The position numbers and the translations under genes were made by a program. The notes below the pieces were generated by a model. That model searched no databases, was not told the DNA's origin, and saw nothing but the letters and a program-made list of their open reading frames with translations. From Flavobacteriaceae bacterium (GTDB lineage Bacteria; Bacteroidota; Bacteroidia; Flavobacteriales; Flavobacteriaceae), in the NCBI GenBank assembly GCA_029938265.1, contig JAOZVI010000003.1, positions 1 to 62,296 on the forward strand: DNA of 62,296 nucleotides, read 5' to 3'. Positions 219-8,036 of the stretch are shown in pieces (position 1 is the stretch's first letter; every line of letters begins with the position of its first letter).

Positions 219-941
219 TTAAACTTTATTGTAAACTTCTTTAAAAGGAATTCGAAATCTTTCACCATAAACTCCTTCTGGCATACGAATACCACAAGAA
301 ATAATCATATTTATTTCAACTTTTCTTGGTAATTTCAAAGCTTTTTTAACTCTTAATGAATCAAAACCTTCCATAGGGCATGTATCATAATTGATATCGG
401 CCATGCTCAGCATAAAAGTTTGTGCAGCTAAACCGGCACTTTTATGTGCTACGATTCGCATATCGCTATTTTTCACTTGCCTGTAAATAGGGCGAAAAAA
501 ACCGATCAACCAAAAAAACACATATTTGAAAAGGCCAAATATTCCCAGAACATCAAAGTAATTTAGAGGGATTAATTTTTTGTAATAATAAATTGCAAAT
601 TTTTCTCTAGAACTATAATTTTCAGGTTTTTTATTTCTAAAAGATCTTTTGATAAATTTGAGATTAGCATTAGCTCTTTTCTTCCAAAGATCCTTTCTAA
701 CAATGATAACCACCATTTGTTTTGCAGTTTTAGCTGCTGGCTGATCAAAGCTTGCAATTGAAATTTTCTTTAAGATATTGGAAGATGTAATATGATAAAA
801 TTCCCATAATTGCATATTGCTGCTATTAGGAGCAAGGGTTGCTTGTTCAATACATTTTTTAACTTTTTGTGTATCAATTTCTTTATCAGGATCAAATTTT
901 CTTACTGATCTACGGTAGTTGATTGCTTGAGTCAAATTCAT
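219..941 (-). CDS. Nitroreductase family protein
   Basis: A 240-residue flavoprotein-type nitroreductase. The N-terminal RRSVRKF (about residues 10-16), the APNSSNMQLWEF segment (about 37-48) and PMEGF (about 190-194) are FMN-binding landmarks of the family, which reduces nitro compounds, quinones or enones with NAD(P)H. A hydrophobic stretch around residues 128-150 probably lines the dimer or substrate channel rather than spanning a membrane. It lies between leuA and ilvD on the same strand but with gaps of 144 and 185 bases, so joint transcription is possible, not shown. The physiological substrate cannot be told. Confidence 0.88.
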   Translation of the reverse strand: MNLTQAINYRRSVRKFDPDKEIDTQKVKKCIEQATLAPNSSNMQLWEFYHITSSNILKKISIASFDQPAAKTAKQMVVIIVRKDLWKKRANANLKFIKRSFRNKKPENYSSREKFAIYYYKKLIPLNYFDVLGIFGLFKYVFFWLIGFFRPIYRQVKNSDMRIVAHKSAGLAAQTFMLSMADINYDTCPMEGFDSLRVKKALKLPRKVEINMIISCGIRMPEGVYGERFRIPFKEVYNKV

Positions 942-2302: not shown

Positions 2303-2413
2303 GAAATGATAGTATTATTTAATATATTGTTATTTACTTTGTTTACTATATTCAATTAATTATTGTTATATGTAATCACTTAAATAGCAGATGTATAAAT
2401 AGATTATATTACG

Positions 2414-3952
2414 ATGTCTATGGTAAAAAAAGATATACTTTTTTTGTTGATAAAGTCATTAACGAAATCAGAAAAGAGACAATTCAAGCTTTATGCCGGC
2501 AGATTAGGCGGAAATTCTGAAAAGAATTTCATGGCATTATTTTCTGTTTTGGATAAATTGGATGACTTTGATGAAACTATTATTTTAAAAAAAACAAATA
2601 TTAAAAAACAGCAATTATCAAATGCTAAAGCTCATTTATACAAGCAAATATTAATTAGTTTAAGGTTAAATCCAGCGCACCATAATATAAAAAACCAAAT
2701 TAGAGAACAATTAGATTTTGCAACTATTTTATACTATAAGGGATTGCATAAACAAAGTTTGAAAATTTTGGATAAAACAAAAAATTTTGCTTTACAAAAT
2801 TATGAGAATAATCTTGCTTATGAAATTGTAGAATTAGAAAAAGTAATTGAATCACAATATATTACACGTAGTATGATTACTCGAGCTGATGATCTGACAA
2901 GCCAGTCAGAGTTGTTGAGTAAAAAAACCGTATTGTTGAGTAAATTTTCAAATTTATCCTTACAACTGTATAGCTTAATGCTAAAAAAAGGATATGTTAG
3001 AAGTGACGAAGATTACGAAAAAATCAAATATTATTTTGAAACGAATCTACCAGATTATAATTTAAAAGATCTAGGATATAAAGAAAAACTTTTTTTGTAT
3101 AAAGCCTATTTGTGGTATAATTTTATAACACAACAATTTGTTTCATGTTACAGATATTCACAAAAATGGGTAGATCTATTTCATGATCAACCGCAAATGA
3201 AACAAAATAATCCTGTTTTTTATTTAAAAGGAATTAATTATTTATTAGAATCTTTATTTTTAATACAACACAGTGTAAAGTTCAAGCAAGTATTAAATTC
3301 ATTTAAAAATGAGATGGATAATCATCATCTTTTACTCAATGTTAATACAAAATCACTTGCTTCATTGATATATTATCAAAACAGAATTAATTTGTATTTT
3401 TTAGAAGGTCAATTCACCAAAGGCACAGAATTTATTCCTGAAGTTTTACAAGAAATTGAATCTTATAAACAGAAATTTGATGAACATCATATAATGGTAT
3501 TCTATTACAAAATTGCAAGCATGTATTTTGGGACTGATAATTATGAAGCTTGTATAACTTATTTAGGAAAAATAATTAACAACAAAGAGCTAAAAATGAG
3601 GGAAGACCTACTTTGTTTTAGTCGCATTTTAAATTTAGTTGCACATTATGAAGCAGGTTTTGATCAAGATTTAGATTATTTGATAAAATCTACTTATAGA
3701 TTTTTAATTAAAATGGATGATCTACATATAGTTCAACGAAAAATAATTACATTTTTAAAAGGTCTGGGGTCAATTTATCCTCACCAATTAAAAAATGCAT
3801 TTATTGAACTTTATGATGAATTGAAACCCTATGAGAATCATCCTTATGAGAAGCGATCATTTTTGTATCTGGATATCATTTCATGGCTAGAATCAAAGAT
3901 TTACAATGAACCTGTTGAAATTATTGTTCAAAAAAAAATAGGAAACAAATAA
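2414..3952 (+). CDS. Conserved protein of unknown function, helical repeat-like
   Basis: A 512-residue cytosolic protein with no signal peptide. It starts with a conserved-looking segment KSLTKSEKRQFKLYAGR (about residues 14-30) and then consists of helix pairs rich in Leu, Tyr, Phe and Lys, resembling divergent tetratricopeptide repeats. I know similar uncharacterised proteins in Bacteroidota but cannot assign a function. It is divergent from leuA (149 bases apart) and lies directly upstream of the ilv leader, yet nothing in it suggests an amino-acid biosynthetic role. A scaffold or protein-binding role is an inference from the fold only. Confidence 0.8.
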   Translation: MSMVKKDILFLLIKSLTKSEKRQFKLYAGRLGGNSEKNFMALFSVLDKLDDFDETIILKKTNIKKQQLSNAKAHLYKQILISLRLNPAHHNIKNQIREQLDFATILYYKGLHKQSLKILDKTKNFALQNYENNLAYEIVELEKVIESQYITRSMITRADDLTSQSELLSKKTVLLSKFSNLSLQLYSLMLKKGYVRSDEDYEKIKYYFETNLPDYNLKDLGYKEKLFLYKAYLWYNFITQQFVSCYRYSQKWVDLFHDQPQMKQNNPVFYLKGINYLLESLFLIQHSVKFKQVLNSFKNEMDNHHLLLNVNTKSLASLIYYQNRINLYFLEGQFTKGTEFIPEVLQEIESYKQKFDEHHIMVFYYKIASMYFGTDNYEACITYLGKIINNKELKMREDLLCFSRILNLVAHYEAGFDQDLDYLIKSTYRFLIKMDDLHIVQRKIITFLKGLGSIYPHQLKNAFIELYDELKPYENHPYEKRSFLYLDIISWLESKIYNEPVEIIVQKKIGNK

Positions 3953-3959
3953 ATTTTAA

Positions 3960-3967
3960 TATTTTTG
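3960..3967 (+). promoter_or_regulatory. Candidate -7 box for the ilv leader
   Basis: TATTTTTG fits TAnnTTTG and starts just after the stop codon of the preceding gene. It would place transcription start about 25 bases before the leader peptide ATG at 3998. A TTG at 3924-3926 is somewhat far for a -33 element, so the assignment is tentative. Confidence 0.4.
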
Positions 3968-3997
3968 TTACTTAATATCATATTAATACAGTTCAAA

Positions 3998-4060
3998 ATG
4001 AACAATTATAAAATATATTCAATTCTTATTATTTCCATTATTATGTCATTATGGGGATAA
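3998..4060 (+). CDS. Ile/Leu-rich leader peptide of the ilvBNC operon
   Basis: A 20-codon open frame with the core KIYSILIISIIM. Six of 20 residues are Ile and two are Leu, and five of the Ile sit within seven codons, as in leader peptides that sense charged tRNA. It is followed within 31 bases by a terminator hairpin and then by ilvB, whose products make isoleucine, valine and leucine. It is absent from ordinary gene calls because of its length. The peptide itself is predicted to have no other function. Expression is not proven, but composition and placement fit attenuation well. Confidence 0.7.
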   Translation: MNNYKIYSILIISIIMSLWG

Positions 4061-4120
4061 GGGTCATATATTTTTTAAATATTTTGAAATACTTCCCGTT
4101 AGATCAGGAAGTTTTTTTTT
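4053..4120 (+). promoter_or_regulatory. Transcription attenuator upstream of ilvB
   Basis: A terminator is formed by ACTTCC (4091-4096) and GGAAGT (4107-4112) with a 10-base loop and a run of nine T. The segment GGGGATAAGGG (4053-4063) overlaps the leader stop codon and can pair with CTTCCC (4092-4097) as GGGA-AG with two bulged bases. A ribosome stalled on the Ile codons would leave it free to act as antiterminator. One that reaches the stop codon would cover it and let the terminator form. The remaining 160 bases before ilvB hold no other clear structure. Confidence 0.62.
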
Positions 4121-4284
4121 ATTTTAAACTTTGTAAATAAAAGATTATAAGACTCATTAAATCAACGCTTTATATTCTTTTTATGAATATTGGATATTGT
4201 AAAGAACATTAATAATAAAAAGGTTAGAAGTATGGGACTTTTTAATTTTGGAAATTCTAAAAAAATAATAAATACATTTAGATT

Positions 4285-6018
4285 ATGGAAACTTTAACAA
4301 AAGCCAAAAAAACAACTAAGAAAGAAAAAACTTTAAAAATTAAAGGTGCTGAAGCAGTAGTAAAGAGTTTGTTGGCTGAGGGTATTGATTTGATTTACGG
4401 ATATCCTGGTGGAGCAATTATGCCTGTATATGATGAGTTCTATAAATATCAGGATAAACTCCATCATGTACTAACACGTCATGAACAAGGAGCAATACAT
4501 GCGGCTCAAGGTTATGCCAGAGTTTCGGGAAAAGTAGGTGTTGCTATTGCTACTTCAGGTCCTGGAGCAACAAATCTAATGACTGGTATTGCTGATGCGC
4601 AAATTGATTCAACACCTGTTGTTTGTATTACCGGACAAGTTGGTTCTAATCTTTTAGGAAGTGATGCATTTCAAGAAACTGATATTGTTAGTATGTCAAC
4701 TACTGTTACCAAATGGAATTATCAGATAACAAAAGCTTCTGAAATTCCAGAAGTTTTGGCTAAGGCTTTTTATATTGCTAAATCAGGTCGCCCTGGTCCG
4801 GTTTTAATTGATATTACCAAAGATGCACAATTTGGAGAATTAGATTTTGAATATAAAAAATGTAAAAAAATAAGGAGTTATAATCCTATTCCTGAAATGG
4901 ATATAACTCAGGTTTTAGCTGCGGCTGAACTGATTAATAAAGCAAAAAAACCATTTATTATTTTTGGTCAAGGTGTTATATTAGCAAATGCTGAAGAAGA
5001 GTTAAAAGAACTGATAGAAAAGGCCGATATACCAGCAGCATCAACTTTATTAGGTTTATCAGCAATACCAACTGAACATGAATTTAATATGGGAATGGTG
5101 GGTATGCACGGACATTATGCACCTAATGTTTTAACCAATGAATGCGATGTTCTCATTGCAATTGGAATGCGTTTTGACGATCGTGTGACCGGAAATTTAG
5201 AAACTTATGCCAAACAAGCCAAAGTAATTCACTTTGATATTGATCCTTCTGAGATCGATAAAAATGTTAAAACAAATGTTGCCGTTTTAGGAACTGTTAA
5301 AGAAACTTTGGCAGCTTTAAATCCGTTGATCAACTCGAATATAAATAAAAAATGGCATCAGGAATTTAAAGATTTACACAAGATTGAGCACGAGGCGATT
5401 ATTCATCCTGAAATAAATCCAACAAAGGAAAAATTAACAATGGGTGAAGTGATCAATGCAATAAATAAAGAAACTAAAGGAGAAGCAATTATTGTATCCG
5501 ATGTAGGTCAGAACCAAATGTTTGCCAGTAGATATGCTAATTTTAAGCAATCAAAAAGTGTTGTTACTTCAGGAGGTTTAGGAACAATGGGCTTCAGTTT
5601 ACCTGCTTCTGTAGGTGCAAAATTAGGAGCTCCCTCAAGAGAAGTTGTTGCAATAATTGGTGATGGAGGTTTTCAAATGACCATTCAGGAATTGGGTACA
5701 ATTATGCAAACAAAAGTACCTGTAAAGATCGTAGTTTTAAATAATGAATTTTTAGGAATGGTAAGACAATGGCAAGAAATGTTTTTTGACAAGCGTTATG
5801 CTTCTACCGTGATGACTAACCCTGATTTTATATCAATTGTTAAGGGTTATGGTATTAAAGCAAAAAGAGTTAATAAGCGTGAAAATTTATCAGTTGCTGT
5901 TTCAGAAATGATCGCTTCAAAAGATTCATATTTTTTAGAAGTTATTGTTGAAAAAGAAGGTAATGTTTTTCCAATGATACCTACAGGAGCTACAGTTTCA
6001 GATGTTAGATTAAAATAA
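4285..6018 (+). CDS. ilvB: Acetolactate synthase, large catalytic subunit
   Basis: Thiamine diphosphate enzyme that condenses two pyruvates, or pyruvate with 2-ketobutyrate, in valine/leucine and isoleucine synthesis. The 577-residue length is normal. The catalytic Glu lies in RHEQGA (about 65-70), PGATN is near residue 93, and the cofactor Mg motif GDGGF begins near 459. A Lys-rich N-terminal tail of about 20 residues precedes the catalytic core. It is the first gene after the attenuator and is followed 7 bases later by the regulatory subunit. Confidence 0.96.
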   Translation: METLTKAKKTTKKEKTLKIKGAEAVVKSLLAEGIDLIYGYPGGAIMPVYDEFYKYQDKLHHVLTRHEQGAIHAAQGYARVSGKVGVAIATSGPGATNLMTGIADAQIDSTPVVCITGQVGSNLLGSDAFQETDIVSMSTTVTKWNYQITKASEIPEVLAKAFYIAKSGRPGPVLIDITKDAQFGELDFEYKKCKKIRSYNPIPEMDITQVLAAAELINKAKKPFIIFGQGVILANAEEELKELIEKADIPAASTLLGLSAIPTEHEFNMGMVGMHGHYAPNVLTNECDVLIAIGMRFDDRVTGNLETYAKQAKVIHFDIDPSEIDKNVKTNVAVLGTVKETLAALNPLINSNINKKWHQEFKDLHKIEHEAIIHPEINPTKEKLTMGEVINAINKETKGEAIIVSDVGQNQMFASRYANFKQSKSVVTSGGLGTMGFSLPASVGAKLGAPSREVVAIIGDGGFQMTIQELGTIMQTKVPVKIVVLNNEFLGMVRQWQEMFFDKRYASTVMTNPDFISIVKGYGIKAKRVNKRENLSVAVSEMIASKDSYFLEVIVEKEGNVFPMIPTGATVSDVRLK

Positions 6019-6025
6019 ATTAAAA

Positions 6026-6550
6026 ATGAAGAAACAAATTTATACCATATCAATTTATACTGAAAATAATTTAGGATTATTAAACCGAATTTCAAGTATA
6101 TTTTTAAAAAGACATATCAATATTGAGAGTTTAACTGCATCGAGCTCAGAAATTGAAAACGTTACCAGATTAATTATCGTTGCGCATTTAACTGAAGAAA
6201 AAGTAAAGAAGGTTATTGGTCAAATTGAAAAGCAAATTGAGGTGATCAAAGCTTATTACCATACAAATGAAGAATCAATTTATATTCAATCTGCTTTGTT
6301 TAAAATTAAATCGAACCTTCTTTTTGATGAGCGTCAGATACAAAATATAATTAAAAACAGTAATGCACAGATTGTAACGGTTTCACCTGAATTTTTTGTG
6401 ATTGAAAAATCAGGAAGAAAAGAAGAAATAGATGCTCTTTATGATGAATTACTACCGTTTGGAATTATGCAATTTGTTAGATCTGGAAGAATTTCAGTAA
6501 CGAAAGAAGAAATGAAAATTTCAGAATTATTAAAAAAACAATTAAATTAA
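6026..6550 (+). CDS. ilvN: Acetolactate synthase, small regulatory subunit
   Basis: A 174-residue partner of IlvB that usually mediates feedback inhibition by valine. The N-terminal ACT domain is clear (residues 3-78: [16 protein letters not shown] and HINIESLTA). A second small domain follows, as in the longer bacterial form also called IlvH. It sits 7 bases after ilvB and 10 before ilvC, so the three are one operon. Confidence 0.94.
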
Positions 6551-6560
6551 AATACAAATA

Positions 6561-8036
6561 ATGACAAATTATTTTAATACACTTTCGCTAAGAGAACAAT
6601 TAGCACAGCTTGGAAAATGTAGATTTATGGATTCTTCAGAGTTCAGTGATGGGGTTTTAATCTTAAAAGGGAAGAAAGTCGTAATCGTTGGTTGTGGAGC
6701 ACAAGGTTTGAATCAAGGATTAAATATGCGTGATTCAGGTTTGGATATTTCTTATACGCTTCGCGAAAGCGCTATTAAAGAAAAACGCCAATCTTATAAG
6801 AACGCAACTGAAAATGGTTTTGAGGTTGGTACTTATAAAGAAATGATCCCTACTGCCGATTTGGTAATTAATCTAACACCCGATAAGCAGCATACTTCTG
6901 TAATCAATGCCGTAATGCCTTTGATGAAAAATGACGCTACTTTATCCTATTCACATGGATTTAATATTGTTGAAGAAGGTATGCAAGTTCGTGATGATTT
7001 AACTGTGATTATGGTGGCGCCAAAATCGCCAGGGTCTGAAGTTAGAGAAGAATATAAACGTGGATTTGGAGTGCCAACATTAATTGCGGTACATCCTGAG
7101 AATGATCCGAAAGGCACTGGATTAGAACAAGCAAAAGCTTATGCTGTTGCTACCGGAGGGAATAAAGCAGGAGTTTTAGAATCATCTTTTGTAGCTGAGG
7201 TAAAATCTGATCTTATGGGCGAACAAACTATCTTATGTGGTGTTCTTCAAACTGGATCTATCTTGAGTTTTGATAAAATGATTGAGAAGGGAATTGAACC
7301 AGAATATGCTGCCAATTTGATACAATATGGATGGGAAACCATCACTGAAGCTTTAAAACATGGTGGAGTTACTAATATGATGGACAGACTTTCCAACCCT
7401 GCTAAAATAAAAGCGTATGAACTTTCGGAAGAATTAAAAGATATTATGCGACCATTGTTCCAAAAACATATGGATGATATCATGTCTGGAGAGTTTTCTA
7501 AAACTATGATGAAAGATTGGGCTAATGATGATAAAGATCTGTTAAATTGGAGGGCTGCTACATCCGAAACAGATTTTGAAAAAACAACAGCTACAGAACG
7601 GGAAATTCCTGAACAGGAATATTTTGACAATGGTGTTTTATTGGTTGCTTTTGTAAGAGCCGGTGTAGAATTGGCTTTCGAAACGATGACTGATTCTGGA
7701 ATTATAGATGAATCGGCTTATTATGAATCGCTTCATGAAACTCCACTTATAGCAAATACGATTGCTCGTAAGAAATTATACGAAATGAACCGTACGATTT
7801 CTGACACAGCAGAGTATGGTTGCTATTTATTTGATCATGCCTGCAAACCACTATTGGGTGATTTCATGAAGGATATTGATACTGACGTAATTGGAAAAAA
7901 ATATGGTGAGGAGAAAGATAATAATATTGATAATCAAACATTAATAGCTGTTAATGAGCAAATTCGTTATCATCCGATAGAAATTATTGGTTACGAGCTT
8001 AGAGAATCGATGACTGCCATGACAAAACTTGATTAA
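6561..8036 (+). CDS. ilvC: Ketol-acid reductoisomerase, class II (long form)
   Basis: Converts acetolactate and acetohydroxybutyrate to dihydroxy acids with NADPH and Mg. At 491 residues it is the long, E. coli-type class II enzyme with two knotted C-terminal domains. The dinucleotide motif [10 protein letters not shown] begins near residue 45, and the following loop [11 protein letters not shown] is rich in basic residues, which suggests NADPH rather than NADH. Third gene of the ilvBNC operon, followed by a strong terminator. Confidence 0.96.

Follow-up and report, generated by a model that had tools for sequence, protein, structure and literature searches.

A predicted isoleucine-rich leader-peptide attenuator upstream of ilvBNC in a Flavobacteriaceae bacterium, with single and tandem counterparts in the family

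Introduction

The trp, his and ilv leaders of Escherichia coli and Salmonella combine control codons with a protector, an antiterminator and a terminator, and the position of the ribosome decides the outcome. In the trp attenuator, region 2 starts just after the stop codon. The leader examined here precedes ilvBNC in a 62,296-nt stretch of DNA from a Flavobacteriaceae bacterium, which was analysed as a whole and is called the window. It shares control codons, an antiterminator strand and a terminator with the E. coli and Salmonella leaders and has a possible protector; unlike in trp, its region 2 contains the stop codon.

Corynebacterium glutamicum IlvL resembles the leader of the window as a short Ile/Leu/Val leader before ilvBNC; its three alternative hairpins, an anti-antiterminator, an antiterminator and a terminator, have predicted counterparts here. 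It belongs to another phylum and its Val codons matter, whereas Ile dominates here, and the antiterminator strand of the window, unlike that of IlvL, spans the leader stop (PMC11857589).

Within the family of the window, a 2021 transcriptome study of Flavobacterium psychrophilum already named leader-peptide attenuation upstream of amino-acid operons, the same mechanism as is proposed here (PMC9723704). That source also describes the family's mRNAs as having no Shine-Dalgarno sequences and gives TAnnTTTG as the consensus of the -7 box. Its main text gives no detail on ilv, and its supplementary table may already list the ilv leader. In Salmonella, mgtCBR has a pair of consecutive leader ORFs ahead of a single operon (PMC3641672), an arrangement found below in relatives of the window. 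One mgtCBR unit responds to ATP and the other to proline, whereas both units of the flavobacterial pair carry Ile/Val codons; the window holds one unit.

Results

Leader region of the window

The features of the locus are collected in Table 1, in which the two ORFs after ilvB are presumed from their sequence type to be ilvN-like and ilvC-like. The leader ORF reads directly from ATG at 3998 to TAA at 4058-4060 and has 20 codons, with Ile at codons 6, 9, 11, 12, 14 and 15 (six in all), Leu at codons 10 and 18 and no Val. With eight of 20 codons for Ile or Leu, it is rich in the amino acids that the operon produces. A predicted intrinsic terminator (4091-4120) lies between the leader and ilvB, its stem formed by ACTTCC (4091-4096) and GGAAGT (4107-4112) and followed by nine T at 4112-4120. 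An earlier note on this DNA, made from the letters alone, had described a 20-codon frame with six Ile and two Leu ahead of a nine-T terminator, and both its description and its coordinates are right. The segment GGGGATAAGGG (4053-4063) lies across the leader stop, and its GGGGA (4053-4057) is complementary to TTCCC (4093-4097) in the terminator 5' arm, which bears out the pairing that the earlier note had proposed and which co-changes across relatives. The same note had called the device very compact. This was mistaken: the Ile codons at 4022-4038 can pair with the stop segment at 4051-4064, a protector hairpin absent from that note, and because a protector/antiterminator/terminator trio is possible the device is not stripped-down.

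Table 1. Coordinates of the leader, its predicted pairing regions and the surrounding genes in the window
Feature	Position	Strand	Basis
Upstream gene	2414-3952	+ (same strand as ilvBNC)	
Candidate -7 promoter box TATTTTTG	3960..3967	+	Exact match to TAnnTTTG
Leader ORF MNNYKIYSILIISIIMSLWG, stop TAA	3998..4060	+	Sequence and homologous leaders in relatives
Region 1 (Ile/Leu codons; protector partner of region 2)	4022..4038	+	RNA folding; hairpin also in relatives
Region 2 (stop-codon segment, core GGGGATAAGGG; partner of region 1 or 3)	4051..4064	+	
Region 3 (terminator 5' arm; 4093-4097 also pairs with 4053-4057)	4091..4097	+	
Region 4 (terminator 3' arm 4107-4112 and T-run 4112-4120)	4107..4120	+	
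ilvB, acetolactate synthase large subunit	4285..6018	+	ORF; relatives
ilvN-like small subunit (presumed)	6026..6550	+	ORF
ilvC-like ketol-acid reductoisomerase (presumed)	6561..8036	+	ORF

Folding of the window sequence gives a z score of -2.67 against shuffles for the terminator hairpin, whose stem is modest (-6.6 to -8.2 kcal/mol). Neither the protector (z -0.94) nor the antiterminator (z -0.61) clearly beats shuffles, and the antiterminator energy of -7.1 kcal/mol is equalled by 14% of shuffled segments (p 0.14). A chance test that required at least 7 of 12 residues to be I, L or V, 15-80 nt before a terminator-like hairpin, returned three cases, the ilvB leader among them, when the 62-kb window was scanned on either strand. 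Because the combination occurs three times, the single sequence is only mildly surprising; it is the comparison with relatives that places the ilvB leader far beyond chance.

The candidate promoter box is suggestive only. Five of six leaders from the genus or nearby carry TAnnTTTG 30-39 nt upstream of the leader ATG, and in the wider family the motif shows no enrichment (6/67 against a shuffled mean of 4.8). A GAATAT-type stretch followed by GTAAA occurs before both ilvB (4180-4210, plus strand) and leuA (2340-2360, minus strand), and some relatives show a weak enrichment of the GAATAT-type motif ahead of ilvD. Across the upstream regions of the 113 family genomes described below, GAATATnG was found in 11 against a shuffled mean of 3.2, and TTGTAAA was not enriched.

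Conservation across the genus, the family and beyond

Eight loci of the same genus or nearby, none with ilvD in front of ilvB, were compared (the window, L002-L006, L033 and L034). A homologous leader precedes ilvB in six, the five besides that of the window being MNNYKIYSILISLWGG (with an in-frame deletion), MNKFNIYSILIISIIISIKGG, MNILGLNISTIISIIILSNKNRK, MNILGLNINTIISIIILSNKHRR and MQYTSSINSIIIIRVISVQRG. Leader length and sequence drift across these loci, and Ile content and the terminator are retained. L006 (genome G005, same genus) keeps the terminator and has another, unrelated gene in place of the leader, and L033 has neither leader nor terminator. Elsewhere in the family ilvB mostly follows ilvD, and the leader/terminator unit then precedes ilvD. 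At a threshold of 5/12 residues, leader and terminator were present in 41 of 80 upstream regions, comprising the eight above and 72 others (L068, L086, L100 and L104 skipped).

A second sample spans the family in 113 genomes, almost all of different genera. These were drawn from 118 genomes with an IlvD match by leaving out G003 (distant copy), G013 (cut gene) and G021, G085 and G327 (near contig ends). With the threshold raised to 6/12, 67 of the 113 carry at least one branched-chain-rich leader and terminator before ilvD or ilvE, and the reverse strand gave 0/113. A peptide similar to MKKQILNIISIIVIVIISQG is the most frequent leader. The earlier note had called such devices much less well known in this phylum than in Proteobacteria; this does not stand, since 67 of the sampled Flavobacteriaceae genomes have a unit and the mechanism had already been named for the family (PMC9723704). 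A looser look at the 46 genomes without a unit yielded few candidates, and loss is therefore frequent. The earlier note had read the locus as classical attenuation of ilvBNC and had named a lack of conservation in relatives as a possible refutation; the relatives keep both the Ile-rich peptide composition and the hairpin, which supports that reading.

Outside the family, the unit was found in 12 of 38 upstream regions and in 0/38 on the reverse strand, and three of the 12 (L247, L253 and L254) resemble chance. The 12 include all five loci examined from one family of another class of the same phylum (L258, L260, L261, L263 and L280); there, at a distance of about 150 nt from ilvD, leaders rich in branched-chain codons are joined to terminators of the CCTTCC or CCTTTC type.

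These data also bear on the leading competitor of attenuation, namely that the hairpin merely terminates the upstream gene and that the leader ORF is a chance product of AT-rich DNA. In its favour, that gene has the same orientation and stops at 3952, G005 keeps a terminator behind an unrelated gene, and I/L/V-rich ORFs occur near hairpins twice more in the window. Against this stand the reverse-strand count of 0/113 and the persistence of both leader and stop-segment pairing before ilvD or ilvE in different neighbourhoods, which together make such a coincidence improbable.

Among 23 type B leaders (defined below) of 20 codons, pN is 0.29 and pS 0.42, a weak constraint at the peptide level; a conserved peptide acting as such was accordingly rejected, and composition and RNA pairing explain the conservation of the leader better. 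Codon choice in leaders differs from that in ilvB: GTC makes up 91/200 Val codons against 265/3415 in ilvB, and ATT 303/404 Ile codons against 1865/3357. The GTC bias fits the theory that attenuation gains sensitivity from the use of one specific codon among the synonyms at the control positions (PMC1183508). Pairing needs could alternatively cause the preference for GTC.

Alternative pairing of the stop-codon segment

The 41 units of the first set had been picked without reference to pairing. When 12-nt windows were scored for complementarity to the terminator 5' arm, the signal was near zero in the leader, peaked at the stop codon (mean over the 41 loci of -7.0 kcal/mol at offset -3 from the stop and of -6.9 kcal/mol at offset 0) and was lower beyond. 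Pairing between each unit's own stop segment and 5' arm averaged -9.0 kcal/mol, a value reached by 0/10,000 permutations of partners, and 78 units of the second sample gave 0/5,000; both tests ignore relatedness and reflect few independent switches. At the sequence level, regions 2 and 3 thus co-change across relatives, and an alternative pairing with the terminator 5' arm is seen across relatives. Two arm types predominate: type B has CTTCC in the arm, matched by stop segments like TAGGAAG, and type A has CTGTATC, matched by TGATACAG. Both occur within Lutibacter, where L041, L050 and L069 are type B and L045 and L046 have both types in series.

An exact pattern search with TGATACAGN{15,40}CCTGTATC returned 16 matches in 299 family genomes, and the reversed pattern one. 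Eleven of the 16 are followed by a terminator and by ilvD or ilvE, as judged by N-terminal sequence, and five are not. In some of the pattern-found loci the stop codon falls a few bases ahead of the segment. The overlap of the antiterminator half with the stop codon, which the earlier note had emphasized, therefore holds in the window and is common in relatives without being universal.

In most leaders the last control codons can pair with the stop segment to form the protector hairpin. An alignment of 17 class A sequences has 89% of protector positions paired, with paired changes, against 39-54% in slid controls. A larger alignment of 24 sequences has 92% of cells paired against 33-47% and contains 30 two-sided changes; it was built from the 17-sequence set without L045, L046 and L085 (14 sequences) and from 10 of the 11 pattern-found ones (L130, with the same leader as L091, left out), and the pattern search fixed part of the stop segment of these ten and not its partner. 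The compensatory stem changes for which the earlier note had suggested looking are thus seen both between stop segment and 5' arm and in the class A protector. Within class A the antiterminator helix hardly varies and therefore says little there, and the terminator helix is 99% paired. The class B alignment held 20 of 24 sequences (L075, L076, L083 and L098 left out).

Modelled RNA states

When the RNA is masked as far as region 2, 38 of 41 units are modelled to form the antiterminator while the 3' arm is still to be made. The exceptions are L075, whose chosen ORF reads past the usual stop, L083 and L098. The terminator is predicted to form in 41/41 with a ribosome on the stop and likewise in 41/41 without a ribosome. 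In the complete RNA the modelled terminator beats the antiterminator in 37/41, the window being among the four exceptions, and the switch would therefore usually have to work by timing. A ribosome covers up to 12 nt beyond the stop codon (PMC4833913), so that region 2 would be hidden to its end. Judging from footprint size, a ribosome stalled on codon 15 would leave 4053 onward free.

The modest stem of the window terminator would also suit a leader that acts mainly on translation, on RNA stability or via Rho, and not by intrinsic termination. This is judged very unlikely, since T-run and stem are kept across relatives and the distance of about 165 nt from terminator to ilvB would make masking of the ilvB start improbable. 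Least credible is a protein- or metabolite-sensing RNA of riboswitch or T-box type with a fortuitous small ORF: it is compatible with a terminator ahead of a biosynthetic operon, but neither the leader region of the window nor the leaders of eight relatives gave an Rfam match at gathering score, and Ile/Val codon content and small pairings are conserved, not an aptamer-like core. In the leader region, curated Rfam models of T-boxes, riboswitches and amino-acid leaders gave sub-threshold scores only, such as Phe_leader at 14.9 bits where 55 are needed. The sole Rfam match among the loci of the eight relatives, a SAM-II riboswitch in L238 (542-631, 44.6 against a gathering score of 44) about 500 nt upstream of ilvD, lies on the opposite strand. 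In the window itself, the minus strand at 52870-52904 matches the Rfam S16-Flavobacteria ribosomal protein leader with 52.5 bits.

Tandem units in relatives

Two complete leader/terminator units in series were found in 11 of the 113 genomes, in 4 of the 72 loci of the first set (Lutibacter twice, strain F08102 and Leptobacterium) and in 9 of the 11 pattern-found loci, sets that overlap in part. The tandem loci, all before ilvD or ilvE, are L045, L046, L055, L057, L118, L120, L122-L124, L126, L127, L131, L133, L138, L140, L166, L186, L212 and L224. In the 11 genomes the second unit is always type A, and the first is type B in ten and has a related stem in one. Pairing with the own arm is better than pairing across units for both units of 9 of 11 tandem loci (mean -11.1 vs -6.3). 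Two units are also present in L262, which lies outside the class.

The window holds the first type (B) only. Somewhat more probably than not, its switch is the first unit left over from a tandem device of an ancestor, with type B (CCTTCC) first and type A (CCTGTATC) second; read-through of such a device would need stalling at both units, and lineages would repeatedly have lost one of them. In a quick IlvB tree from a short search, the four tandem rows of the first set are interspersed with rows that have only B or only A, one of the four adjoins the A-only clade, and they amount to four separate changes. Such a distribution fits a tandem in the ancestor from which one unit was lost several times, and independent gains may be another origin of the tandems. 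At 4234-4250 the window contains GGGACTTTTTAATTTTGG, kept in the genus as GGCTTTTTATTTTTGG, which is similar to the end of type A terminators; it may be a relic of a lost second unit.

Other amino-acid genes of the genome and genus

In the genome of the window, trpE (G000:C4, L285) is preceded by the leader MKLQKLHIWWWSLRDNDS and then a strong terminator, and the segment after the leader stop pairs with the terminator region at -13.0 kcal/mol. Upstream of a thrA-like gene (G000:C116, L290) lies a Thr-rich ORF, MVFTSTYTTTTTPLGFSLC (283-342, reverse strand), with a CCCC/GGGG hairpin inside its last codons; a clear terminator was not seen there. These two loci support the view that the genome habitually uses leader peptides for control. 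By eye, the 149-nt region upstream of leuA in the window showed neither leader ORF nor terminator, and a search of the genome for hisG gave no result.

Pfam IlvD was likewise not found in the genome. In the genus, three of six genomes have ilvD, never in front of ilvB: in G003 (C114:9380-11005) and G005 (C117:8382-9356) it is encoded on the opposite strand at a distance of about 5-6 kb from ilvB, and the G003 copy is only 44% identical to the operon type. Loss of the ilvD pathway was considered and rejected, since these copies exist and a contig end coincides with the start of the window; the absence of ilvD from the genome is therefore probably an effect of the contig edge.

Discussion

The anatomy of the leader switch and its conservation in relatives point to ribosome-mediated transcription attenuation of ilvBNC in response to charged Ile-tRNA, and probably Leu-tRNA, a reading to which a probability of roughly 0.87 is assigned. 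The promoter, ribosome stalling, termination and amino-acid response would be as follows. RNA polymerase would start near 3970, with a ribosome following on the leader. When Ile-tRNA is sufficient, the ribosome would reach the stop and cover region 2, and the terminator would end transcription. When Ile-tRNA is scarce, the ribosome would stall at Ile codons 11-15 and hold region 1, and the bare GGGGATAAGGG would then pair with the terminator 5' arm, allowing transcription to proceed into ilvBNC. Without a ribosome, region 2 would be held by region 1 and the terminator would form. A counterpoint is that the leader has no Val codon, though ilvBNC also makes valine.

The leader is most probably an instance of ordinary ribosome-mediated attenuation, and units of this kind are widespread in the family and not rare. 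The mechanism has already been suggested for amino-acid operons of the family (PMC9723704), and the tandem arrangement in relatives is the new part. Among the open-licence papers listed for tandem attenuators or two leader peptides there were mgtCBR and erm-type systems and no same-signal pair before an amino-acid operon.

For a family in which the regulation of amino-acid operons is little studied, the leader provides a concrete model of attenuation. If the proposed tandem action is true, two units in series would make the response to the same amino acids steeper and less leaky. The natural series of single-B, single-A and tandem loci would show directly how the dose response changes when another attenuator for the same signal is present.
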